A DNA stretch of 25,980 nucleotides from a virus, in the IMG/VR virus record IMGVR_UViG_3300032116_001172, positions 1 through 25,980 of that record; one strand, 5' to 3'. Numbering within the stretch: position 1 is the first letter of the stretch; every line of letters starts with the position of its first letter. Positions 4,074 to 25,980 of the stretch are shown piece by piece. Under the pieces are notes generated by a model that was given only the letters and a program-made list of their open reading frames with translations, did not search any database and was not told the DNA's origin. The translations under genes were made by a program, and so were the position numbers.

Positions 4074-5039
4074 TTAATTAACGGTGTAAGTTGTGTTACC
4101 ACCAAAGAAATTATTGGTACTAAATGTGCTATCTCCAGTAAAAGTATGAATTATGTAACCTGGAGAAGTTGTTACTGTACCGCCAGTAGCTTGTTGGCCT
4201 CCAGAATCATTGTAACGAATGATTACGATGCCTGTACCCCCAGAAGCACCGGCAGCTGGATTATCTTGTCCTGTACCGCCTCCGCCTCCGCCGCCAGTAT
4301 TTGTTGTTCCAGGTGTTCCTTGGCCACCAAAATGACCTCCTGTACCGCCGCCGCCACTGCCGCCTGGAGCACCAGGTGAAACTTGAGAACAACCGCCGCC
4401 ACCACCTCCTGCATAAGTTGCTGGTGTACCAGATGGTGCTATTGTTGTGGTTACTCCATTTCCTCCAGTGCCTCCAGCAGCTGCTGGAGCAGGAGCTGCA
4501 CTTCCTGGTGCTCCTGCACCGCCGCCGCCACCGCCGCCGCTGTTTCCAGCTCCAATTCCATTTCCACCATTATTTCCTTGTCCAGGAGTTCCAGGACCGC
4601 CAGATGGAGATACGCCAGGAGAAATTTCTCCAGCTCCGCCGCCACCTGAGCCACCACTTGATGCTGCGCTTAGGCTTTGGCCGCCTCGGCCACCACCAAT
4701 AGATGTAACTAAAGCTGTTGTTGATGCAACATTAATAAAAGAATAAGAACCACTTACCGAAACAGGAGTTGGATTAGTACCTCCAGGTCCACTAGCACCA
4801 ACAACAATAGAATATGAAGTTGATTTTGATAAAGAAAAATTAGATCCTTGACTGAATCCACCAGCACCTCCGCCGCCGCCATGATTAGCTCCGCCGCCGC
4901 CGCCGCCAGCAACTACAACATAATCAACAACAGTATTTGCTGGAATTGCAGCATTTAATCCTGTTGGAAATTTGTAGCCTGTTGGCCGTGATGAGCGTAA
5001 GCTATCTGAATTTGGAACATTAAGAAAACGAATCGGCAT
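4074..5039 (-). CDS. glycine-rich tail fibre/adhesin protein (copy A)
   Basis: A 321-residue protein. The N-terminus (MPIRFLNVPNS...RPTGYKFPTGL) leads into a VDYVVVAGGGGGG strand, then about 200 residues dominated by poly-glycine blocks. It closes with GIVIIRYND, SPGYIIHTFTGD and a short aromatic/Thr tail. Glycine-run domains of this kind form polyglycine-II bundles in some T-even tail-tip adhesins (S16 gp38 type), so host-surface recognition is likely but not shown. It is a clear paralogue of the protein at 5925-7019: both ends match closely and the glycine-rich middle diverges in length. The start overlaps the upstream stop as TAATG. Reverse-frame open frames over it are glycine-codon artefacts. 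Confidence 0.85.
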   Translation of the reverse strand: MPIRFLNVPNSDSLRSSRPTGYKFPTGLNAAIPANTVVDYVVVAGGGGGGANHGGGGGAGGFSQGSNFSLSKSTSYSIVVGASGPGGTNPTPVSVSGSYSFINVASTTALVTSIGGGRGGQSLSAASSGGSGGGGAGEISPGVSPSGGPGTPGQGNNGGNGIGAGNSGGGGGGGAGAPGSAAPAPAAAGGTGGNGVTTTIAPSGTPATYAGGGGGGCSQVSPGAPGGSGGGGTGGHFGGQGTPGTTNTGGGGGGGTGQDNPAAGASGGTGIVIIRYNDSGGQQATGGTVTTSPGYIIHTFTGDSTFSTNNFFGGNTTYTVN

Positions 5040-5377
5040 TATGATATCTCCACGCCAAAAGCTGAGATTGCCAAGCTACCATTATTTGTATTGGCTGCTA
5101 CAACCGTACCAGCTGGCAATGTTAAAGGAAAATCTAGTATAACTGTATCTCCAGAAGGAGCAATAGAACCACGCATTACAAAGTGTCTTGGTAATGGTGA
5201 ACTGGAATTGTCCGTAGAAGGAACAACAATAATACTATATGAAGCATTTGCATCACCGGTATTATCTACATGAATTGCGTTTACAACAGCTGCGGTGGAT
5301 GCTGGTACCACATAGACATTTGTTTGTGTATTGGCAGTTGGATTAATCTGACCAAGAATTGTATGAATATTTGGCAT
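5039..5377 (-). CDS. small tail-associated ILGQ...GVEI domain protein (copy A)
   Basis: A 112-residue protein opening MPNIHTILGQINPTANTQTN and closing AISAFGVEIS, with a strand-rich core containing VYVVPASTAA and SIIVVPSTDNSSSPLP. By eye it aligns nearly end to end with the protein at 7019-7354. The same ILGQ...GVEI frame recurs in the larger proteins at 5377-5892 and 7354-7938. It sits between a larger family member and the glycine-rich adhesin, with TAATG overlaps on both sides. It is probably a virion component of the distal tail or fibre, for instance a connector or chaperone-like subunit, but that is inferred from context only. Confidence 0.75.
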   Translation of the reverse strand: MPNIHTILGQINPTANTQTNVYVVPASTAAVVNAIHVDNTGDANASYSIIVVPSTDNSSSPLPRHFVMRGSIAPSGDTVILDFPLTLPAGTVVAANTNNGSLAISAFGVEIS

Positions 5378-5892
5378 TAGATTATCTCCACACCATAAGC
5401 ATTGACAGAAACATTTGCATTTGTAGCATTTGCACCTGTAATGTTTGCTGAAAGAATTGAACCAACATTAAGTGAAATTCTTGGTTCTAGCACCAATGTT
5501 TCTGCGGCACCAAGAGCATAACTTGTTACAATAAAGTTTCTTGTTGCTACTGCTGAACCACTTAGGTTTGCAGCTACATTGACTGATACTGTATTTGCAC
5601 TTTGATTGCATACAGTAATTGTGGTGACCATTGTATTTGTAGCTGCAGGTACCGTATAGATGGTAGTAAGAACATTTGCTGTTGGTTGCACTTGACCTAG
5701 AATTTTGTATGGAAGGCGACCAGCAGCTGAATCAGGAATAACGCCAACCGCAGAAGAAACGACCGAAAGTTGACCGTTGGAAATTGCAGCGCCAGGAGCT
5801 AACTTTGCAGCCGTGATTGTTGCGTCAGCTATATCGGACCCAACAATACTCCCTGCGGCTATCTCATTTCCTGTGACTTGTTGTAATGGCAT
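5377..5892 (-). CDS. tail-associated protein with ILGQ...GVEI domain (copy A)
   Basis: A 171-residue protein. An N-terminal part (MPLQQVTGNEIAAGSIVGSD, then ATITAAKLAPG) has the ITAAKLAPG-type repeat common in phage tail-fibre shafts. The C-terminal domain runs from YKILGQVQPTAN (about 63) to VNAYGVEII. It is paralogous to the 194-residue protein at 7354-7938, with TITAAKLAPG, SNGQLSVV and the ending conserved. The ATG at 5892 has AAGGAA about ten bases upstream, and a late-promoter-like element lies at 5914-5921, so this is the first gene of module copy A. A role in fibre assembly or attachment is inferred. Confidence 0.75.
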   Translation of the reverse strand: MPLQQVTGNEIAAGSIVGSDIADATITAAKLAPGAAISNGQLSVVSSAVGVIPDSAAGRLPYKILGQVQPTANVLTTIYTVPAATNTMVTTITVCNQSANTVSVNVAANLSGSAVATRNFIVTSYALGAAETLVLEPRISLNVGSILSANITGANATNANVSVNAYGVEII

Positions 5893-5913
5893 TAAGTGAT
5901 TCCTTGAGTATTA

Positions 5914-5921
5914 TATTTATT
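5914..5921 (-). promoter_or_regulatory. late-promoter-like element (AATAAATA)
   Basis: The minus strand reads AATAAATA, one base from TATAAATA, in the 32-base gap between the two tail modules and 22 bases before the start at 5892. The spacing is shorter than at the other candidate sites, so this is a modest call. It would allow copy A to be transcribed separately from copy B. Confidence 0.35.
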
Positions 5922-5924
5922 GTG

Positions 5925-7019
5925 CTAGTTTATAGAGTATTGTGATCCAGTCCAGTTTGTATTGGTATTAAAATTACCATCTCCAGTAAAAGTGTGAATT
6001 ATGTAACCTGGAGAAGTTGTTACTGTACCGCCGGTTGCTTTTTGGCCCTCACTATCGTTATAGCGAATAACTACAATGCCGCTTCCTCCAGAACCTCCAG
6101 TATAAACAGAAATTCCATTGCCGCCACCGCCACCGCCAGTATTTGTTCCGCCAGCACCGCCATTACCAGCGGGTCCAGGTCCATTTCGTGATCCACTTCC
6201 CGCTGTATTAAATGCCGAGTTGCCTCCAACTCCATGCCGGCCAACAGCTCCGCTGTTTGCAGGAAGAGTTCCTGGGCCATATTCAGCACCGCCGCCTCCT
6301 CCACCTAAACCACCATTTCCTGCAACTCCATTCGGGTTTAATGGACTATCATGCTGTCCACCGCCGCCACCGCCGCCAGCCCAATATAGTGATGTGCCTG
6401 TAATAGAAGATATTATTCCTATACCACCATTTCCTGAAGCTGGAGCAGGTCCAAAAACTCCAGCTACGCCAGCAGCTCCAGCTCCACCGCCGCCTCCTGG
6501 GCTATATCCACCCGAACCGTCATATTGTAGGCCGGCTCCTCCATTATTTCCTTGACCTGGAGTTCCAGTACCACCATTGACTGGAGCTGCAGGTCCAGGA
6601 AAAACTCCGCCGCCGCCACCAGATCCTCCAGCTGAACCATCAGCTGATCCTCTGGTTGGTGCGCTATAAGAACCTCCGCCGCCGCCACCTGAGCTAGAAG
6701 TTAACACAACTCCAACTGCGGTGTTTATAAAAGAAAAGCTACCGTTTGAACCTCTAATATCAACACCAGAAGTGCATCCTGGGCCTCCTGCTCCAATTTT
6801 TATACTTGAGCTTGAACTATTTGTAAATGTTAATGATCCAGTTGTAAATCCTCCGGCGCCGCCACCACCAGCACCGCCGCCGCCTCCGCCAGCAACTACG
6901 ATATAATCTACTGTTGCATTTGATGCTAAACCAGACAGTCCAACAGGAAATTTATAGCCTGTTGGTCTTACTGTTTTTCCTTCGTTAGAACTTTGATTGA
7001 CAAGAAATCTAATTGGCAT
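5925..7019 (-). CDS. glycine-rich tail fibre/adhesin protein (copy B)
   Basis: A 364-residue paralogue of the protein at 4074-5039. Shared landmarks are the MPIRFL start, RPTGYKFP, a VDYIVVAGGGGGG strand, a long glycine-rich centre, GIVVIRYNDS and TVTTSPGYIIHTFTGD. The centre is about 40 residues longer than in copy A and has different inter-glycine residues, where variation in receptor binding would be expected. Its TAATG start overlap and gene order match copy A. Likely a distal tail adhesin. Two such genes could be co-assembled subunits or alternative receptor-binding proteins. Confidence 0.85.
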   Translation of the reverse strand: MPIRFLVNQSSNEGKTVRPTGYKFPVGLSGLASNATVDYIVVAGGGGGGAGGGGAGGFTTGSLTFTNSSSSSIKIGAGGPGCTSGVDIRGSNGSFSFINTAVGVVLTSSSGGGGGGSYSAPTRGSADGSAGGSGGGGGVFPGPAAPVNGGTGTPGQGNNGGAGLQYDGSGGYSPGGGGGAGAAGVAGVFGPAPASGNGGIGIISSITGTSLYWAGGGGGGGQHDSPLNPNGVAGNGGLGGGGGGAEYGPGTLPANSGAVGRHGVGGNSAFNTAGSGSRNGPGPAGNGGAGGTNTGGGGGGNGISVYTGGSGGSGIVVIRYNDSEGQKATGGTVTTSPGYIIHTFTGDGNFNTNTNWTGSQYSIN

Positions 7020-7354
7020 TATGTTATCTCCACACCAAATGCTGAAATTGCTATACTTTGATTGCTATTCGCCGCAAGAACTGTTCCTGCTGGCAATGTC
7101 ATAACAAAATCTAGTAATGCTTCATCGTCACCTGGTAAAGAAGCTCCTCTTATCACAAAGTGCTTTGGCAATGGCGAACTAGAGTTATCAGTAGAAGGAA
7201 CAACAATGATACTGTATGAAGCATTTGTTGAACCTAAATTTGTTATGTTTATTGAATTTACAAAAGCTGCGGTAGATGCTGGTACAACATAAACATTTGT
7301 TTGTGCATTTGCCGAAGGATTTACCTGTCCTAAAATTTTTAAAGAATTTGGCAT
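7019..7354 (-). CDS. small tail-associated ILGQ...GVEI domain protein (copy B)
   Basis: A 111-residue protein, MPNSLKILGQVNPSANAQTN to AISAFGVEIT. It aligns with copy A at 5039-5377 with only a one-residue length difference, and long blocks such as YSIIVVPSTDNSSSPLP are identical. Most differences are in the middle (RGASLPGDDEALLDF versus RGSIAPSGDTVILDF). Start and stop overlap the neighbours as TAATG. Its role is inferred to be the same as copy A: a small structural or assembly protein of the tail module. Confidence 0.75.
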   Translation of the reverse strand: MPNSLKILGQVNPSANAQTNVYVVPASTAAFVNSINITNLGSTNASYSIIVVPSTDNSSSPLPKHFVIRGASLPGDDEALLDFVMTLPAGTVLAANSNQSIAISAFGVEIT

Positions 7355-7938
7355 TAGATTATCTCCACACCAAAAGCATTAACCGTTACATTTGATGTAT
7401 TTGCATTTGCTCCAATTATGTTAGCAGCAAGAATTGAAGAAGCATTCATTGTTATATTTGGTTCTAACAGAAGTGTATCCGCTCCGGTAAGATTAAACGA
7501 CCTTACAAGATAATGTTGATTACTTAAAGCTTGTGTGTTTAATCTAGCAAAAAAATCAACGGATACCGTATTAGCAGATTGATTTGTAATGGCAATTGTT
7601 TTTACGACAGTTTGAGTTGAAGCAGGAACAACATATACATTTGTTGTCGTATTTCCAAATGTTGATCCTCCAACTTGAACTTGCCCTAAAATTTTATATG
7701 GAGTTATTGTTGCTGGCGAATCTGGAATTACAGCAAGACCAGCAGTGACAACGGATAATTGACCATTTGAGAGAGCAGTGCCAGGAGCTAACTTTGCAGC
7801 CGTGATTGTGCCATCTACAATATTGTTTGCGTTGATAGCCGTCAGGCCAAGTTTATCGCCTGTGATGGATTGGCTTCCAAATGAATCTACGACTGCGTTG
7901 GCAGCGATAACTCCCGCCGTTACTTTTGTTAAGGGCAA
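7354..7938 (-). CDS. tail-associated protein with ILGQ...GVEI domain (copy B), TTG start
   Basis: A 194-residue protein starting with TTG at 7938 (residues MPLTKVTAGVIAANAV, matching the MPLQQVTGNEIAAGSI start of copy A). A strong Shine-Dalgarno, TAGGAG, six or so bases upstream fixes this unusual start. The N-terminal part repeats INANNIVDGTITAAKLAPG, a fibre-shaft-like pattern. The C-terminal domain runs from YKILGQVQVGG to VNAFGVEII. It is the first gene after the consensus late promoter at 7973-7980 and is 23 residues longer than copy A, mostly N-terminal. Probably a virion tail-fibre component. Confidence 0.75.
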   Translation of the reverse strand: MPLTKVTAGVIAANAVVDSFGSQSITGDKLGLTAINANNIVDGTITAAKLAPGTALSNGQLSVVTAGLAVIPDSPATITPYKILGQVQVGGSTFGNTTTNVYVVPASTQTVVKTIAITNQSANTVSVDFFARLNTQALSNQHYLVRSFNLTGADTLLLEPNITMNASSILAANIIGANANTSNVTVNAFGVEII

Positions 7939-18882: not shown

Positions 18883-19271
18883 TTTAGATTTCTTAGCGCC
18901 TGTGCAATTGACATATCTACGGGTATCTCGGAAGAAATAATATCGTGCCCTTTAATTCCTCGCACTCTATCGGGCATACAACTCAAAAACAACAAATATG
19001 TTTTGAGTGCTGAATAATCATCTTTTGCCATTTTGAAGAACAACAATCGTGTTGATACTTCGGGACCAAAAACATTGCTGAGAACAACTAAATGATTAAG
19101 AACTAATTGCTCTCTTAATTCACCTAGCTTACGATATCGTTTAAATAACCTTTTGAGGTAATTAAATCGTTTCATATCTTCTCTAAACTCACTCATTATG
19201 CAATTTGGCTTATCATAGGCTTTTGCTGCATAAATCATTACATTATCATTATTCAAATCATCAAAAGACAT
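18879..19271 (-). CDS. conserved T4-like phage protein of unknown function (DUF7207-like)
   Basis: A 130-residue helical protein, starting MSFDDLNNDNVMIYAAKAYD. RFNYLKRLFKRYRKLGELRE and LVLNHLVVLSNVFGPEVSTR with LLFFKMAKDDY are the most characteristic stretches. I associate this KYIKRLF...GEL...ILNHL..L.NVFGP..TR pattern with a conserved unknown of marine T4-like phages and have it in memory as DUF7207; the family name should be verified. It is coupled to neighbours on both sides (shared stop/start bases). A structural or assembly role is likely from context. Confidence 0.7.
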   Translation of the reverse strand: MSFDDLNNDNVMIYAAKAYDKPNCIMSEFREDMKRFNYLKRLFKRYRKLGELREQLVLNHLVVLSNVFGPEVSTRLLFFKMAKDDYSALKTYLLFLSCMPDRVRGIKGHDIISSEIPVDMSIAQALRNLK

Positions 19272-19699
19272 TATTCTATTTCTTCGTTGTCCTCCTCACC
19301 ATCCGCCATTAGTTCATCCATTCTTGCATCATCGCCTACTTCAGCAAAAAAATCATAACTACCTTCATCGGTGAGATAATATAAAATGTAAAGATTTGTT
19401 GATAGATTTGCTTGACCAAACTGCTCTATCTCAAAAACAATTTCATCTCCTTCAGGGTTAGCATCGTAAAGTGCTGGCATATCAAATCCAAACCTATGCA
19501 GCACTTTACGAATTGCCTGTATACCACCTTCAGGAGAGAGAAAAGGTTCATATAGTTCGTTTGTTAACCGATAGTTCATTTCCATACGGATTTTAGGGTT
19601 GTCAATAGCTGACGAAGCCTCACCCGTAGGTTCGTGTGCATCTATCGCTTGACCAGCTTCAATACTGGTCAATTCTTCAACAAACTGCTTAAATCGCAT
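19271..19699 (-). CDS. head-region protein with MRFKQF N-terminus
   Basis: A 142-residue acidic protein, MRFKQFVEELTSIEAGQ, with NPKIRMEMNYRLTNELYEPF, YILYYLTDEGSYDFFAEVGD and a strongly acidic tail (DGEEDNEEIE). The short basic-aromatic start resembles the capsid-targeting starts of T4 internal proteins (compare MKSFKSYITE at 24776). The stop and start overlap neighbours as TAATG. Possibly an acidic scaffold-like or structural protein. No family known to me. Confidence 0.65.
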   Translation of the reverse strand: MRFKQFVEELTSIEAGQAIDAHEPTGEASSAIDNPKIRMEMNYRLTNELYEPFLSPEGGIQAIRKVLHRFGFDMPALYDANPEGDEIVFEIEQFGQANLSTNLYILYYLTDEGSYDFFAEVGDDARMDELMADGEEDNEEIE

Positions 19700-20106: not shown

Positions 20107-21972
20107 TTATAATTTTGTAAGTGTAGTTGATAGCTCAGGGTCTTTCTGAAAGGCATCTTCAGAAGCCGTTTTTTTCTTTTTCATAACATCTTTGACGATT
20201 GCAGCCTTCTTTGATTCTTCTTTGATGGGCGCTTTCTTCATTTTTTCTACTTGTTTTTGCATGGCCATACGAGCAAGATGACGAGCAGTAGAATACGCTT
20301 TGCCATGTTTGCCTGCTATTACTTTATCTTTTGGCTTGGTACCGCCTTCAAAAGGAGGTTTTGTTTCCTCTGTTGAAAGACCTGCCTTATAAGATTTTTC
20401 ATAATCTTTTTGCATAGCATCTTGTGATACTTTTCTTGTTGCTCTTTGTATACCTTTTTGAGTTTGTGGGCTGTGGTCTTTGTAACCTTTTGTATCGTAT
20501 GTTTTGTGAAGGTAACTCATGGCAGTTTTAGCTGAGATTTCATCAATCTGCTCAACTTCTTCACTCACAGATTTCCAACCACCGCCTTTTGATTTGTACC
20601 ATTTTGATGCCCAACCATTTGCGTAGGCTGATGGGTATACATCAAATTTGGAACGAGCAAGAGCTTTGGCCCGAGACCAGAGGCCAGGGTTTGTTGGTAC
20701 ATTCTTTTCATCTAGTTGCTCTACTTCTTCTTTTATTTTATTTTTAAGGTTGAGATAAGCATCATTATGTTTTACCGCCATGCTATTATGTTTATAAAAC
20801 TCTGAATTTTCTTTATGATTGTTTTTTATGAAAGCTTTTGCAGCAAGATTTCCATAATGTTTTTCCATATGTTTATGGTAATTTAACATATCACCATTTT
20901 TCTTAAAAGTTTTTGCTTTTTCCAAGCCCTCATCAATTTGTTCTACTTCTTCATTCATTTCAGCTGTCATATAGTTTGCAACAGTTGAAATATAATCTTC
21001 TGCAAGAGTAACTTTATTTTGACACCATTCTGGCAAATTATCATCATCGTCAAGCATATCAATTAAACGATTTGCATTGGCAATAATTGAGCGTAAATCT
21101 GACTTTACCATTTCGCCTTCATAATCATATTCTCTTTTGTCATCTTTGGCTTCACTAAAACCTTTTTTCTTAAAGTTAGCAAATTGTTTATTGGTTGCTT
21201 TGACAACACCAGAGAACCGTTTGTTGCCTCGTTCAAAATTACCTGCTTTATCAGCTTTAGAAGCATCAGCTGCAGCTTTTTCTTTGTAACGATGTAAGAG
21301 CTCTGTTGATAACTCTGTAATGTTTTTGAGTTGTTTATAAGTTTTCATAGGTTCTTTATTTGGTTTATCTGTTAAAGTTGCTTGTGCTGATCCTGCCACT
21401 TGTTGTGGTCTATCACCTGCAAAATCTTCGTTCATTTCTTTTCGGCGTTGTGCATTACTTTTTACATTTGGCGCATCAGGATTTTTATATGGTGTTTTTC
21501 TCATTCCTTCTTTATCATAATTACCAGATTTCTTTTTAGCAATGGCCGTAGCAGCTGCAATTGCGGCTGCATTTGCTTCACCAATTGTTTTCAGTCGTGT
21601 ATAGTAATCAGGCTTTTCATTTAAGTGATCTAGTGCAATTTCTGTTGCAGCCTGAATGTCTGAAGTATGCTCTTTTTCTACTTTAAGACCCATTTCTAGT
21701 TGTTTCTGTATTTGCTCTTCTGAAACACCATGCTTCTTTGCAATAGATTGTATAGACGGAGCATCTTGTGGTATCTCAACAGAATCTTGCACACAATTTG
21801 GTACCATGCGGTCACCTTTTTTCTTCATACCAATTTGCCGATAACCAGTCCAACACCGTTCATCTAATTTTGGTGTAGCAACAACTCTACTTAGCACATT
21901 CCGAGGAACGGTAGGTTTAAACCTACCTTTCTCTCGGTGTTGCTCGCTGAAAACTTCAGACAACTTTTTCAT
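20107..21972 (-). CDS. large lysine-rich modular head/internal protein with EEVEQIDE repeats
   Basis: A 621-residue mosaic protein, MKKLSEVFSEQHREKGRFKP. Modules in order are a cysteine segment (KLDERCWTGYRQIGMKKKGD, then VPNCVQ), an alanine/lysine helix (AAAIAAATAIAKKK), MKTYKQLKNITELSTELLHR with a KRFSGVVKATNKQF helix, an EMVKSDLRSIIANANRLIDM/LPEWCQNKVTLAEDYISTV helical domain, and LWSRAKALARSKFDVYPSAY with WASKWYKSKGGGWK. EEVEQIDE-type motifs lie at 341-348, 415-422 and 471-478. Each has the I/L-x-E form cut by T4-type prohead proteases. I used the ATG at 21972, since an earlier ATG at 22011 lies inside the upstream gene without a ribosome site. The role is inferred to be packaged, DNA-associated peptides. 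Confidence 0.75.
   Translation of the reverse strand: MKKLSEVFSEQHREKGRFKPTVPRNVLSRVVATPKLDERCWTGYRQIGMKKKGDRMVPNCVQDSVEIPQDAPSIQSIAKKHGVSEEQIQKQLEMGLKVEKEHTSDIQAATEIALDHLNEKPDYYTRLKTIGEANAAAIAAATAIAKKKSGNYDKEGMRKTPYKNPDAPNVKSNAQRRKEMNEDFAGDRPQQVAGSAQATLTDKPNKEPMKTYKQLKNITELSTELLHRYKEKAAADASKADKAGNFERGNKRFSGVVKATNKQFANFKKKGFSEAKDDKREYDYEGEMVKSDLRSIIANANRLIDMLDDDDNLPEWCQNKVTLAEDYISTVANYMTAEMNEEVEQIDEGLEKAKTFKKNGDMLNYHKHMEKHYGNLAAKAFIKNNHKENSEFYKHNSMAVKHNDAYLNLKNKIKEEVEQLDEKNVPTNPGLWSRAKALARSKFDVYPSAYANGWASKWYKSKGGGWKSVSEEVEQIDEISAKTAMSYLHKTYDTKGYKDHSPQTQKGIQRATRKVSQDAMQKDYEKSYKAGLSTEETKPPFEGGTKPKDKVIAGKHGKAYSTARHLARMAMQKQVEKMKKAPIKEESKKAAIVKDVMKKKKTASEDAFQKDPELSTTLTKL
20539..20562 (-). repeat. 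EEVEQIDE motif, third copy in the large head protein
   Basis: The protein reads SEEVEQIDE followed by ISAKTA. The same eight-residue motif is at 20929-20952 and 22619-22642, with L in place of I at 20707-20730 and a shortened EEVELDE at 24555-24575. All fall between unrelated modules, as linkers with a potential I/L-x-E protease site. Confidence 0.75.
20707..20730 (-). repeat. EEVEQLDE motif, second copy in the large head protein
   Basis: Codes for KEEVEQLDE followed by KNVPTNPGLWS. It separates the KHMEKHYGNLAAKAF-type module from the LWSRAKALARSKF module. The nucleotide sequence is diverged from the other copies, so this is a protein-level repeat. Confidence 0.75.
20929..20952 (-). repeat. 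EEVEQIDE motif, first copy in the large head protein
   Basis: Codes for NEEVEQIDE followed by GLEKAKTFKK. The E-G junction after the motif matches the preferred T4 prohead protease cleavage context (I/L-x-E before G or A). Confidence 0.75.
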
Positions 21973-21973
21973 T

Positions 21974-22840
21974 TCAGGCTTTCTCTTTTGCGATGCGGGT
22001 TGCGGTAGCATACATTACATTTTTAGCACGCTCACCATAACGCTCTTTAAAACCAGGCATTTTCTTTTTCATTGATTTAACAACTTCTTCTTTTTTCTTT
22101 GCTTCTGGTTTTGTAAGTGAACGCTCTTCTAAATCAATCGTAGAAACTTTAATTTCATTTGCATCGGTCATATCAATAACCTGCACTTGATTATGGGTTT
22201 TAGATTGAGTTTCTTCAGGCATTTGCTTTACGCCTTGTGTAGAAGCTGCTGAAACAGATGGTTGTTTCTTTTTACCCATCATAGAAGCTTCTTGGTCTTT
22301 TAATTCTTTTGTAAACTGCTCATTGTCCGGTTCTTCAGCAATTACAGCAAGACCATGCTCTTTGTATGCAGCCATCATTTCAGAGAAAGTCATTGATTTT
22401 TCTTCTTCTTGCTCAACTTCTTCTTTATTATAACCTGGAACTTTTGGTACAACACCATATTTACCTATTTTTCCGGATCTAGCTTCTAATCTCCTAACAG
22501 CATCTCTTTTTCCAATAGATTGATTTTCATAAGAAGAACCAGATCCTTGGCGGCCGCCACCGCCACTTTCTACTTCTTTTGTCTTTTTTAAGTAAGATTT
22601 GAGTGTTTCATTAGAAAGCTCATCAATTTGTTCTACTTCTTCTTTCTTTACTTCTTTTTTAGCACGAAGAAGTTTGAAGTCGTGAGCATCAATCTTATTG
22701 TTTTTGTTGGCATCAATCTTGTGTTGATTGCCTTTCAGTCCTTCTTCTAACATCTTTGGTTCTTGTTTAGCAGATTCGCCAGCCAAAATTTTGGCAACGG
22801 CATCTGCAACATTACGAGTTTTTTGGTTGTCGAAATGCAT
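21974..22840 (-). CDS. modular head protein with EF-hand-like loop and EEVEQIDE motif
   Basis: A 288-residue charged protein starting MHFDNQKTRNVADAVAKILA. Residues 43-54 (DANKNNKIDAHD) have D-x-N-x-N-x-K-I-D-x-x-D, a plausible calcium-binding EF-hand or dockerin-like loop. EEVEQIDE at 67-74 is followed by LSNETLKSYLKKT. A degenerate EEVEQEEE is at 140-147. The C-terminal MPGFKERYGERAKNVMYATA (261-280) is a module I recall from head-region proteins of T4-like phages. The start has TAGGAGAA upstream, and the stop is one base before the next ATG. Probably a prohead-internal protein; function unproven. Confidence 0.7.
   Translation of the reverse strand: MHFDNQKTRNVADAVAKILAGESAKQEPKMLEEGLKGNQHKIDANKNNKIDAHDFKLLRAKKEVKKEEVEQIDELSNETLKSYLKKTKEVESGGGGRQGSGSSYENQSIGKRDAVRRLEARSGKIGKYGVVPKVPGYNKEEVEQEEEKSMTFSEMMAAYKEHGLAVIAEEPDNEQFTKELKDQEASMMGKKKQPSVSAASTQGVKQMPEETQSKTHNQVQVIDMTDANEIKVSTIDLEERSLTKPEAKKKEEVVKSMKKKMPGFKERYGERAKNVMYATATRIAKEKA
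22619..22642 (-). repeat. EEVEQIDE motif in the EF-hand-like head protein
   Basis: Codes for KEEVEQIDE followed by LSNETLKSYLKKT. Shared with the downstream large head protein (20929-20952, 20539-20562). Confidence 0.75.
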
Positions 22841-22859
22841 AGTTTTCTCCTAAGTTTTT

Positions 22860-24275
22860 TTAATAAATTTCTCGCCATTGTAAGGCAGCAGCAACCGTTG
22901 CAACTGCTTGAGCGGCTGTTGTAATTGTTCTTACCACTACTACATATACTTCTGAATTTGATGAATCATAATTTTGCGTAATAAAATTCTTTTTTGCTTC
23001 AGAAATGCCTCCAGTATTTACTGGTGATAGTGCGTTTTGTGAAGCACCCGCAGGAACAAATCCGGCAAGAAGAATTTCTGCGTTTGCGGATGTGTAAGTA
23101 TCAGCATTAACACTATATTCACAACCACTATCTGGATCGGCTGAAATCCAAACAATTGGACCGGTACTGTTTGCTAAATCTCCAGTATTAGGTAATTTTA
23201 CAATCTTAAAAATAATACTGTTTGTTTCTGCATACATTGAGAGTGTATCTAATTTCACACTCAATCGGTTTGGATAAGTTTTAAATGTGTTCTTTAATCT
23301 TAATGCAACAAGAGGCAATTCTGTTGCGGCTGGTGATTGAGTTGTTCTTGCATTGTTAACAATTCCCCAATCAAGACCAGATTCATTGTAACCACCTTCT
23401 GAAATAACAGTAGCACAAATTTGACCCATAGAACCGCCAGAAGTTGTTCCAGTATTTCTTATTTCACAACGAACTGGTAAGTTTGGATTTGAAAGATAAA
23501 CTGTATCCAATACATTTGAATTATAGTATTCGTGTGCTATAATAAACTCACCATCATGGACAAAACCAACACGAACACGGCCAACACCTAGCCATTGAAA
23601 GTCAATGTAAATTAATTGTGTTTTTGAAGTATCAATGTTGAAACCTGATGGGCCTGTACCGTCACAAGGGTCACGGTTCCATTGTGATTGTGGCACTCTA
23701 CGCTTATAAGAACCAACATCTGTTTCTTCTGGTGTTCCATTTACAAAAGAACGAATTACAAAATTTAATGTTCCGTTATCTGTATTGTTTGAAGTGTTTG
23801 AACCAACTTGCTCAAAATAAATTCCATCACGGTCATCAAAGTATCCAGTTCTCTTTGTCACATTTTGTTGTGCGTACCCAAACACAACAGAAGAAAGAAT
23901 AACTTGTGATTTGCCTGGTTGATAACTGTGATAAAATTTACTTTGGTGTACCGATACAGATGATGTGCTATTGTTTGTTGATAATGTGGCAGAAGCAGTA
24001 TTTCCTGTAAACACAACTGAACCGCCATTTGCAGTAAAATCTATAAAATTTGGATCAATTCCATAAAGATGTTTGTAGTCGCCAAGTGTAAATGGTTCTG
24101 CAACACGCAAACGCCCAAAAGCATCACCAGTAGGGCCAGAAAATGCAGCATCCACAGGTAATCTATTTTCAGTTGACACAATATCACCATTGGCACCATT
24201 GGCCAAATACATGACCTCATAGATGTGCCTATTGGTATTTAAAAACTGATTTGTTTGTGTCGTAAATTGAGTCAT
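22860..24275 (-). CDS. large virion structural protein
   Basis: A 471-residue protein, starting MTQFTTQTNQFLNTNRHIYE. It contains FGRLRVAEPFTLGDYKHLYG (53-72), a jelly-roll-like strand-rich core with repeated GYFDDRDGIYFEQVG, QLIYIDFQWLGVGRVRVGFV and EFIIAHEYYNSN, and a C-terminus ending ALQWREIY. The AFGRLRV(S/A)EPFTLGDYKHLYG block is known to me from abundant structural proteins of marine and freshwater T4-like phages, probably of the outer capsid or tail. It has no membrane segment and its cysteines look unpaired. Context among head proteins supports a virion role; the exact location is not resolvable. Confidence 0.75.
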   Translation of the reverse strand: MTQFTTQTNQFLNTNRHIYEVMYLANGANGDIVSTENRLPVDAAFSGPTGDAFGRLRVAEPFTLGDYKHLYGIDPNFIDFTANGGSVVFTGNTASATLSTNNSTSSVSVHQSKFYHSYQPGKSQVILSSVVFGYAQQNVTKRTGYFDDRDGIYFEQVGSNTSNNTDNGTLNFVIRSFVNGTPEETDVGSYKRRVPQSQWNRDPCDGTGPSGFNIDTSKTQLIYIDFQWLGVGRVRVGFVHDGEFIIAHEYYNSNVLDTVYLSNPNLPVRCEIRNTGTTSGGSMGQICATVISEGGYNESGLDWGIVNNARTTQSPAATELPLVALRLKNTFKTYPNRLSVKLDTLSMYAETNSIIFKIVKLPNTGDLANSTGPIVWISADPDSGCEYSVNADTYTSANAEILLAGFVPAGASQNALSPVNTGGISEAKKNFITQNYDSSNSEVYVVVVRTITTAAQAVATVAAALQWREIY

Positions 24276-24281
24276 ATTATA

Positions 24282-24776
24282 TTAGCAGTTCCACTTTCTT
24301 AGTGCTTTGTTGATGCGGCTATCTGGATCATTGGCAGTTTTTGCTGATGTTAAACGCTTTTTCATTCCACCCATACGAGCGCAGAATGATTTACGGCGAT
24401 TGGCTGCCTTTGAACCAGGTTTTAATTTACTAGGTTTTGTAGTAACTGCCATAGAAAGTTTTGAACCTGGATTTTCACGGCGATATGATTCAATACCTTT
24501 ACGATTCAAACCGCCAGATTCAGATTTACCCTCTTTGCGTTGCCATGCAGCAACTTCATCAAGTTCTACTTCTTCACCCATGTGCTTACCTTGAATGTCC
24601 TTGTAGTGACGAGCACCGGTTCTTTTACCTTCGTTATCCACTTCAGCATATTCGTAGGTCTTTTTGCCTGTTGCTGTATGTGTAGCAGTTTTACCTGTTG
24701 GATGCCACATATGACCTTTTTCACCAGGATAATCTTTTGGTTGTTCTTCTGTGATATAAGATTTAAATGATTTCAT
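24282..24776 (-). CDS. internal head protein candidate with capsid-targeting-like start (DUF6321-like)
   Basis: A 164-residue basic protein. Residues 1-10, MKSFKSYITE, resemble the capsid-targeting sequence of T4 internal protein III (M-K-T-Y-Q-E-F-I-A-E as I recall it). They end in I-T-E, a prohead-protease-type site. EEVELDE lies at 68-74. The C-terminal module RRKSFCARMGGMKKRLTSAK (127-146) to ALRKWNC matches a small basic phage domain I have in memory as DUF6321. High lysine/arginine content fits DNA contact in the capsid. The ATG overlaps the upstream stop (ATGA at 24776-24773). The internal-protein role is inferred. Confidence 0.7.
   Translation of the reverse strand: MKSFKSYITEEQPKDYPGEKGHMWHPTGKTATHTATGKKTYEYAEVDNEGKRTGARHYKDIQGKHMGEEVELDEVAAWQRKEGKSESGGLNRKGIESYRRENPGSKLSMAVTTKPSKLKPGSKAANRRKSFCARMGGMKKRLTSAKTANDPDSRINKALRKWNC
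24555..24575 (-). repeat. EEVELDE motif, short form
   Basis: Codes for GEEVELDE followed by VAAWQRKEGK, a seven-residue form of the EEVEQIDE linker, containing the L-x-E protease-like site. Confidence 0.6.
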
Positions 24777-25980
24777 CCTATTGGCCTTTTTGCTTTAAAT
24801 GTTTTAATGTTGATACCTTTTTGTTTCAATACATTATCATTAAAATCACTCATTGATGTAGCATCTTCACCGCCGGCACCAATTGCTTCTTCAAAAGGTT
24901 TTACATTTTGTTTTGTTTTTAATCCTTTGCGAGTTAGATTTTCGCCACTTTGACTCATAGACAAACCTGGTTCAATGCCTTTATCAATTGACTCTTTTAC
25001 TTTTTCTTTTTGCCGTTGCCGGATTTTTGCGAGCGTGATTTTGGTTGACTTGTCGGCTTGGCTGCCGGCTTGGAGTTGGATGCCTTCGTCTTTGGCGTAT
25101 TCGTTGGCGCTGGTGAGCTCGGCGTATCCTTCGGTGATAGGTCTACTGGCTTGCTCAGCGAGGCCTGTGTGACCGCTTCCATTGGATGTGGCTCGGAAGT
25201 TTTGAATAGATTTTTGATGAATTTTAACATTGTCATTCTCCTCATTTAATTTAATAACATAGCCATTTTTATATGGCATGACTGTACCATTAATCGTATG
25301 TGCTTCCTTTGCAGCTGCTCTACGAAGCATGAATGTTCTTACTTTGCCGGTTTTATCTTTAAGTAATTTAATTTCTTTCTTTTCTTCCTCAAAGTTATCG
25401 TAATCATGCTCATCAACTTTAGTGCCAAGTAACAATAGATTCATAGCACTTGAATCAGATAATGAATATGATTCTGATATTTTACCTTTGCCAAAATTAG
25501 AAACATTAATTGGTGGGCCTTTGCGCTCAGGATTTGGATCATGCCGGCGTTTGGCTGATACTGCTGCAGCTCTTTCTTTTTTACTTAACTTAGCTCGTTT
25601 TTCATTTGACATACATTTTGGTTTTGCTTCGCCTGGTTCACGAGCACATGGACCAATTGCTTCACCTTTTGCATTAATTCTTTTCCATCCGCCTTTTGGA
25701 TGTTTTGGGTCAAACCATTGGCGTAAATCTTCAGCAAACACTTCTTCAAACTCTTCATCAACAGAAGCTTCTTCTTTAAATATTTTATCAAAATCAGAAT
25801 CTTTTTTGTTTAATGGTTTTTCGGTTGAAGAAGTGTTCAATTGTTTAGATTCTTCTCTTTGAACTTCAACCAATTTGTCGTGTATTGACCGATACATTAC
25901 TTTACCATTCTTTCCGTAGCGGCCAAAGCCGTAGTATTGTAAACCCATCTTACGAGCTTCTTCAGATGCCTGTGAACTTG
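24773..25980 (-). CDS. modular basic head protein, 5' end beyond the window
   Basis: At least 402 codons. The frame stays open to the right edge (residues SSQASEEARK before an internal MGLQYYGFGRYG), and no ribosome site precedes that ATG (25948), so the gene is probably partial. Modules are the AEEARKMGLQYYGFGRYG-like start, an acidic linker (EEASVDEEFEEVFAE), a basic DUF5872-like domain (RQWFDPKHPKGGWKRIN, GPCAREP...PKCMS and KKERAAAVSAKRRHDP), a middle with MLRRAAAKEAHTINGTVMPY, and a lysine-rich end (KGINIKTFKAKRPIG). RPITEGYAE carries an I-x-E-G site. It overlaps the nested gene at 24997-25230 and couples to the next gene. Likely prohead-internal; function unproven. Confidence 0.7.
   Translation of the reverse strand, partial: SSQASEEARKMGLQYYGFGRYGKNGKVMYRSIHDKLVEVQREESKQLNTSSTEKPLNKKDSDFDKIFKEEASVDEEFEEVFAEDLRQWFDPKHPKGGWKRINAKGEAIGPCAREPGEAKPKCMSNEKRAKLSKKERAAAVSAKRRHDPNPERKGPPINVSNFGKGKISESYSLSDSSAMNLLLLGTKVDEHDYDNFEEEKKEIKLLKDKTGKVRTFMLRRAAAKEAHTINGTVMPYKNGYVIKLNEENDNVKIHQKSIQNFRATSNGSGHTGLAEQASRPITEGYAELTSANEYAKDEGIQLQAGSQADKSTKITLAKIRQRQKEKVKESIDKGIEPGLSMSQSGENLTRKGLKTKQNVKPFEEAIGAGGEDATSMSDFNDNVLKQKGINIKTFKAKRPIG
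24997..25230 (-). CDS. nested out-of-frame gene for a basic Pro/Ser/Lys-rich protein
   Basis: A 77-residue protein within the partial head gene in a different frame on the same strand. It starts at the ATG at 25230, seven bases after a strong GAGGAGA Shine-Dalgarno. The product begins with an amphipathic helix (MLKFIKNLFKTSEP), then SLSKPVDLSPKDTPSSPAPT and a histone-tail-like basic end (TSQPKSRSQKSGNGKKKK). The segment is about 55% GC, against about 20-30% in flanking lines, as expected where two frames constrain the same bases. It may be a DNA-binding or phosphoprotein-like virion component. Translation is unproven. Confidence 0.6.
   Translation of the reverse strand: MLKFIKNLFKTSEPHPMEAVTQASLSKPVDLSPKDTPSSPAPTNTPKTKASNSKPAAKPTSQPKSRSQKSGNGKKKK

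Follow-up and report, generated by a model that had tools for sequence, protein, structure and literature searches.

The IMG/VR virus record IMGVR_UViG_3300032116_001172, analysed here at its full length of 25,980 bases and referred to as the window, is complete as a record yet covers only part of a phage genome. Three of its minus-strand genes encode proteins in which small modules are separated by the acidic linker EEVEQIDE and its variants. Comparing them with related loci and records (L-numbers below), we find the tripeptide phi-x-E at fixed offsets before module cores (phi = I/L/V/M/F; a vertical bar in a peptide marks the predicted gp21 cut). Based on this sequence comparison the window genes probably encode head-internal or core polyproteins of a T4-like aquatic phage, cut by the prohead protease gp21 at phi-x-E into exchangeable domains. 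Each small domain would begin directly after a phi-x-E tripeptide, and EEVEQIDE would be the commonest junction form, with phi (I/L/V) at P3 and Glu at P1 of a gp21-family site. The proteins would enter the prohead core, some through a T4-type N-terminal capsid-targeting leader, and gp21 would then split them into separate domains, of which some at least would remain in the finished virion and may accompany the DNA into the host. Since such a site would bound each domain on both sides, domains could be exchanged by recombination at the linkers without harm to processing.

The phi-x-E tripeptide at module junctions

Six EEVE-type linkers are present in the window, all on the minus strand. The 288-aa protein (21974-22840) contains EEVEQIDE|LSNETL (22619-22642) and the degenerate EEVEQEEE|KSMTF (22400-22423); the 634-aa open reading frame (ORF; 20107-22011) contains EEVEQIDE|GLEKAK (20929-20952), EEVEQLDE|KNVPTN (20707-20730) and EEVEQIDE|ISAKTA (20539-20562); and the 164-aa protein (24282-24776) contains EEVELDE, with the predicted cut L-D-E|V (24555-24575). 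In 20,000 shuffles of the three proteins the mean number of such motifs was 0.0005 and the maximum 1. An earlier note on this DNA had counted at least five EEVE(Q)(I/L)DE motifs, which agrees with the four EEVEQ[IL]DE copies and EEVELDE found here besides EEVEQEEE, and one of them is indeed followed by Gly (20929-20952). Its statement that every motif contains I/L-x-E does not hold for EEVEQEEE. The motifs do lie in three genes as it described, but a structural gene lies between the third and the remaining two. Likewise, its view of mostly lysine-rich modules releasing basic peptides applies to most segments, the predicted fragments being mostly basic (pI 9-11) but ranging from pI 4.8 to 11.1. 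I/L-x-E is abundant elsewhere in these proteins, with 12 sites in the 634-aa ORF, so the tripeptide by itself is weak evidence.

We searched for module cores using regular expressions blind to the upstream sequence and then scored the position of phi-x-E. Modules of the LSxxTLxxY type carry the tripeptide at one fixed upstream offset in 138 of 149 cases, while other offsets average ~2%; where the linker has no EEVE, phi-x-E is still found at the fixed offset in 66 of 77. Fixed positions are also observed for RYG..ATAT modules (13/13) and MGDVVKDF modules (7/7), against a background frequency of 2.5% of positions. In a junction set based on hidden Markov models, P1 is Glu in 157 of 157 and P3 is I/L/V/M in 153 of 157; the seeds of these models were modules preceded by an acidic residue plus Glu, so that the regular-expression test is the cleaner one. 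Following EE[VIAT]E, phi-x-E is found in 77% of cases compared to 17-49% for control tetramers. As the junction counts share ancestry, tiny binomial values derived from them are not to be taken literally. The rule is not universal at one spacing, since DUF6321 shows two phi-x-E offsets, and the CW..GY module shows no single fixed offset among 14 non-redundant cases.

The bond cleaved by T4 gp21 follows L/I-x-E, and no cleavage takes place when P1 of the targeting leader is Asp (PMC9026906). For gp21 sites, persistence between distant phages is expected of the hydrophobic P3 and the P1 Glu only, whereas mere common descent predicts that all positions are lost alike. The linkers of Caulobacter phage Cr30 are very different (EMINE|A, NLNE|R, ALDE|V and ILAE|I) and still keep the rule, as do 44 of 48 distinct linkers lacking EEVE. 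The cleavage sites of T4 Alt are ITE-6 and LTE-619 (PMC5694885), and the Alt sequence MELITE|LFDE demonstrates that Leu, the most frequent P1' residue in the linkers described here, is tolerated at this position.

Structure prediction makes it plausible that one module at least is an independent domain. The LSTELL module alone is predicted to form a helical hairpin with a predicted local distance difference test score (pLDDT) of 91, and its first helix starts at residue 3 past the predicted cut. This ITE|LSTELL junction (21313-21321, minus strand, in the 634-aa ORF) is preceded by an internal leader-like stretch, MKTYKQLKNITE. A Foldseek search of the hairpin against the PDB returned nothing significant (best E 0.27, MIT-like hairpins), and a single-sequence fold of the whole 634-aa ORF was uninformative (pLDDT 45).

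A scan of IMG/VR with the codon pattern of EEVEQIDE gave at least 120 matching stretches. The sequence after the motif differs for nearly every copy, the most frequent among the matches listed being LSKKTLGSYVKKA. Isolates bearing the same modules are T4-like phages, namely P-TIM68, S-SKS1, P-RSM6, BUCT-ZZ01 and Cr30. The pattern matched 21 times in bacterial and archaeal genomes (257 billion bases searched); 20 matches are isolated and chance-like and the remaining one lies on a viral contig in an archaeal metagenome-assembled genome (MAG), and we therefore rejected the motif as a general bacterial feature. This contig (L302, NHGE01000016.1, MAG 'Euryarchaeota archaeon TMED129') combines a CW..GY module with EEVEQIDE and is almost certainly a T4-like phage misplaced in the MAG. 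Among the papers searched, all from outside the subscription literature, none contains EEVEQIDE, EEVEEIDE or KKTLGSYV/KSTLGSYV, and none was found to describe the motif or the modules.

A probable association with the phage head

The protease gp21 (PF03420) was found in 21 of 21 module-carrying records of at least 79 kb, and the five module-carrying records without it are fragments of 43-75 kb. In the gp23 N-terminal regions of these phages, the position aligned with the maturation site reads L-x-E for 18 of 20 sequences. Four records have module-protein genes lying between portal and gp21: L273 (a 751-aa product with EEVEQIDE), L277 (three such proteins), L274 and L125 (BUCT-ZZ01). In T4 this interval is occupied by genes 67 and 68, the products of which are cleaved by gp21 (PMC9026906). 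The module genes of the window are not in this slot; they adjoin a nucleotidyltransferase gene, upstream of primase-nrdA-nrdB. S-SCSM1, P-TIM68 and Cr30 have in common the order nucleotidyltransferase, module protein, further genes, primase, nrdA, nrdB, to which Cr30 adds thymidylate synthase between primase and nrdA. The window population fits this order once L127, a record of the same population, supplies the truncated end. In S-SCSM1 the proteins labelled as virion proteins include ORF29, ORF89 (EEVENVDE|RYKGK), ORF92 (EEVELDE|RTRYAK) and ORF91, a nucleotidyltransferase with the leader MKSFLQFLKE|AAES; mass spectrometry of its CsCl-purified virions is reported to have identified 974 peptides and 45 proteins, ORF91 included (PMC9602691).

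A leader of ~10 aa resembling the T4 capsid-targeting sequence (CTS), with a gp21-type end, is found in the 164-aa protein (MKSFKSYITE|E) and in an 855-aa protein of L127, and likely in the 634-aa ORF. In the latter an internal ATG at 21972 lies 13 codons into the ORF and one base past the upstream stop codon; this is probably the true start, giving the leader MKKLSEVFSE. The 288-aa protein has no N-terminal CTS-like leader. The same modules also occur directly behind T4-type leaders, as in MKTLKDFIAE|QKPCWKGY (L059) and, for DUF6321, MLKFKDFILE|VAAWQRKEG (L036); for comparison, T4 ipII and ipIII start with MKTYQEFIAE|A. T4-CTS-like leaders start ~8% of all ORFs in loci L001-L247 compared to 0.2% in shuffles, and many other hypothetical proteins in these loci may be capsid-targeted.

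The nucleotidyltransferase gene at the window end (24773-25978, minus strand) runs off the contig, so that only its 3' part is present; the whole gene is found in L127 (L127:4936-7503). The 855-aa product comprises the leader MKFSEFLRE|A, a nucleotidyltransferase (cytidyltransferase/NMNAT-like), an LIE|GVHD junction, a zeta-like P-loop kinase and an FAE|DLRQWF...GGWKRI module. The combination of nucleotidyltransferase and kinase resembles the NadR architecture (adenylyltransferase plus kinase), but with the L-x-E|GVHD junction in between. This junction is present in 15 of 15 sequences, and its x takes eight residues (I, N, V, S, T, L, A and F). Such a pattern, in which P3, P1 and P1' are fixed but P2 is free, is expected of a T4-type protease site. 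The kinase is also found by itself, behind the leader MNLHES/QILAE|G, in L070 and L192. A Pfam search detected no embedded peptidase; it returned only the zeta-toxin-like kinase (in the full-length L127 protein), DUF5661 and DUF6321.

The slot shared with genes 67 and 68 raises the possibility that these are core proteins like T4 gp67/gp68, cut by gp21, with pieces that exit the prohead after a role in assembly only, and no injected cargo. Most T4 core fragments do leave the head (PMC9026906). We nevertheless regard this as unlikely, since purified virions of S-SCSM1 are annotated as containing homologues, the cargo includes enzymes without an obvious scaffold role, and rapid module turnover suits a conflict or host role better than a scaffold. 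A wider form of the polyprotein reading is a cassette system, in which any domain between phi-x-E linkers would be loaded in the head, freed by gp21 and injected, and linker recombination would re-deal early effectors. We propose it tentatively and give it somewhat less than an even chance; the effectors, including the nucleotidyltransferase and the zeta-like kinase, would then probably have host-takeover or anti-defence functions.

Alternatively, EEVE..phi-x-E could be a docking motif, an acidic peptide that anchors basic modules to the scaffold or portal core and is uncut or cut incidentally. This would explain why the upstream EEVEQ is more conserved than a gp21 site requires and why a hydrophobic P1' (L/I) begins a predicted helix, and in the T4 CTS targeting and cutting residues do adjoin (PMC9026906). 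Docking predicts the opposite of what is retained, however: junctions lacking EEVE keep phi-x-E alone, and the NMNAT/kinase junction keeps only L-x-E|G. We therefore consider the docking explanation improbable.

Module exchange and the linker DNA

The earlier note had proposed looking for module shuffling at the linker boundaries in related genomes, and orthologues do swap modules exactly at the sites. The DNA of the 288-aa gene is ~85-90% identical to its relatives up to nt 221, i.e. the end of the first linker (nt 199-222; 22619-22642 of the window). Beyond this point the DNA is unrelated, and homology returns either at nt 412, just before the second linker EEVEQEEE (418-441), in L172, L175 and L169, or at nt 712 in L129 and L135. 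The latter position coincides with the LEE|RSLT junction (22124-22132, minus strand) that precedes the SMKK...RYG..AKxVMYATAT module. The middle protein segments consequently differ among the window, L129 and L132. In a masked-BLAST breakpoint test 38% of alignment starts lay within 2 residues of phi-x-E compared to 13% at random, a difference favoured by the masking and not relied on here.

These breakpoints would also be expected if the linker were mainly a DNA recombination handle for domain shuffling and the peptide had no special role, and linker DNA does match several places per genome. In L001-L247 the Gln codon of EEVEQIDE is CAG in 80% of copies compared to 49% in other Gln-Ile pairs, while the same ORFs use CAA for Gln ~70% of the time overall; this trace of shared ancestry fits a transfer of linker DNA in swaps. 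In contrast, the 137 EEVEQIDE copies are encoded by 66 different 24-mers with a wobble identity of 0.66 (0.58 expected), P3 shifts among I/L/V by first-base changes and stays hydrophobic, P1 is always Glu, and the junction rule holds also between unrelated DNA. The codon variation led us to reject a pure DNA recombination site as the sole cause, with the Gln codon retaining its trace, and we find the handle very improbable even as the main role of the linker. Ordinary acidic flexible linkers in Glu-rich structural proteins, with I/L-x-E arising from composition, are hardly credible: frequent as the tripeptide is, composition does not account for its presence at fixed offsets in 86-100% of modules against ~2% elsewhere, for its excess after EE[VIAT]E over control tetramers, or for six window motifs against 0.0005 in shuffles.

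Several observations weigh against polyproteins cut by gp21. The gp23 sites are nearly all L-x-E with a small P1', while the linkers are mainly I-D-E followed by L/I/K, so that cleavage of the linkers could be slow or absent. L/I-x-E precedes the predicted scissile bond in five of the six window EEVE linkers, EEVEQEEE being the exception, and among the predicted pieces two internal ones (pI ~4.8) and a third (~5.9) are acidic. The window fragment of 26 kb contains no gp21-type prohead protease gene. For S-SCSM1 we counted 48 virion-protein labels while 45 were reported, and a few labels may rest on homology. Strict T4-like leaders start 10% of motif proteins and 7.6% of other ORFs in the same loci (P=0.31), and a looser pattern 21% and 10%, respectively; as the strict pattern is no commoner than in neighbouring ORFs, also on re-testing, the leader was rejected as a necessary companion of the motif. 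Taken together, the earlier note's proposal of gp21-type sites in head-internal polyproteins has gained strong comparative support from the fixed phi-x-E, the leaders, gp21, the 67/68 slot, the virion labels and the module swaps, with cleavage itself, like any IPI-III-like action of the released pieces, a prediction.

Genomic setting and comparison with known systems

The T4-like genes of the window include ribonucleotide reductase subunits, thymidylate synthase, primase, endolysin, spanin-like genes and a virion structural protein. The latter (471 aa, phrog_1645, E=1.7e-108; 22860-24275, minus strand) is a neighbour and no module protein; it lies between the genes of the 288-aa protein and of the 164-aa protein, which ends in a DUF6321 module. 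Besides its three EEVEQ[IL]DE linkers and the LSTELL hairpin, the 634-aa ORF contains a CW..GY module, DUF5661 and a VYPSAYANGW module. An acidic 142-aa protein (pI 4.05; 19271-19699, minus strand) with the leader-like N-terminus MRFKQFVEEL is possibly, on weak grounds, a further internal head protein. Elsewhere in the window (4074-7938) a gene pair (phrog_2295-like and phrog_1276-like) is present twice in tandem, with a GC content of 0.49-0.51 that is above the rest of the window; Lys and Arg make up just 2% of the phrog_2295-like 321-aa protein. Duplicated fibre or exported proteins are a possible explanation.

Cyanobacteria, SAR11 and freshwater bacteria are hosts to highly abundant T4-like phages, which encode many lysine-rich hypothetical proteins without assigned function. 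If the junctions are gp21 sites, dozens of hypothetical proteins could be divided into testable domains by a single rule, cleavage after phi-x-E, and the nucleotidyltransferase (annotated NMNAT) in cyanophage virions would be accounted for. This would further suggest a large and rapidly changing repertoire of injected domains, a kind that includes anti-defence proteins such as T4 internal protein I (IPI), and provide ready-made linkers for cargo loading into T4 capsids.

The proposed system resembles T4 IPI-III in the leader of some of its proteins (MKTYQEFIAE|A in T4, MKSFKSYITE|E in the window, MKSFLQFLKE|A in S-SCSM1), the predicted I/L-x-E sites, the mostly small and basic predicted products and, in the large related records, the co-occurrence with gp21. 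The T4 proteins are single domains cut once at the leader, whereas here a chain comprises many domains with a predicted site at each internal junction, and a strict leader is absent from most motif proteins. Because the cargo includes a nucleotidyltransferase and a zeta-like kinase, T4 Alt and the polyvalent proteins are as close as the internal proteins. Alt, an enzyme loaded into the capsid, has NAD-related chemistry and is trimmed at either end (ITE-6|L and LTE-619|S); the enzymes here are different ones, a nucleotidyltransferase and a zeta-like kinase with an L-x-E|G junction between them. Polyvalent proteins (Iyer et al. 2017, PMC5512222), in the parts of that paper searched, are multi-domain proteins of the injected type for which proteolytic release of domains was proposed, zeta-like kinases among them. 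Release is credited there to an embedded metallopeptidase, whereas here a separate head protease is predicted to act on a repeated linker, and the same parts of the text mention neither a gp21-linker system nor cyanophages. The ejection proteins of SPN3US and phiKZ are capsid proteins in which a gp21 homologue cuts at several sites, AxE or S/A-x-E (PMC10052503, PMC9026906), but these sites sit in discarded propeptides and not between exchangeable folded domains. With T4 gp67/gp68 the system shares the portal-gp21 gene slot in several relatives and multiple predicted gp21 cuts, although T4 gp67, the precursor to the internal peptides, is an acidic protein of 80 aa without exchangeable folded modules. 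In the reading favoured here, the proposed system would most likely function like the T4 internal proteins, Alt and gp67 combined.

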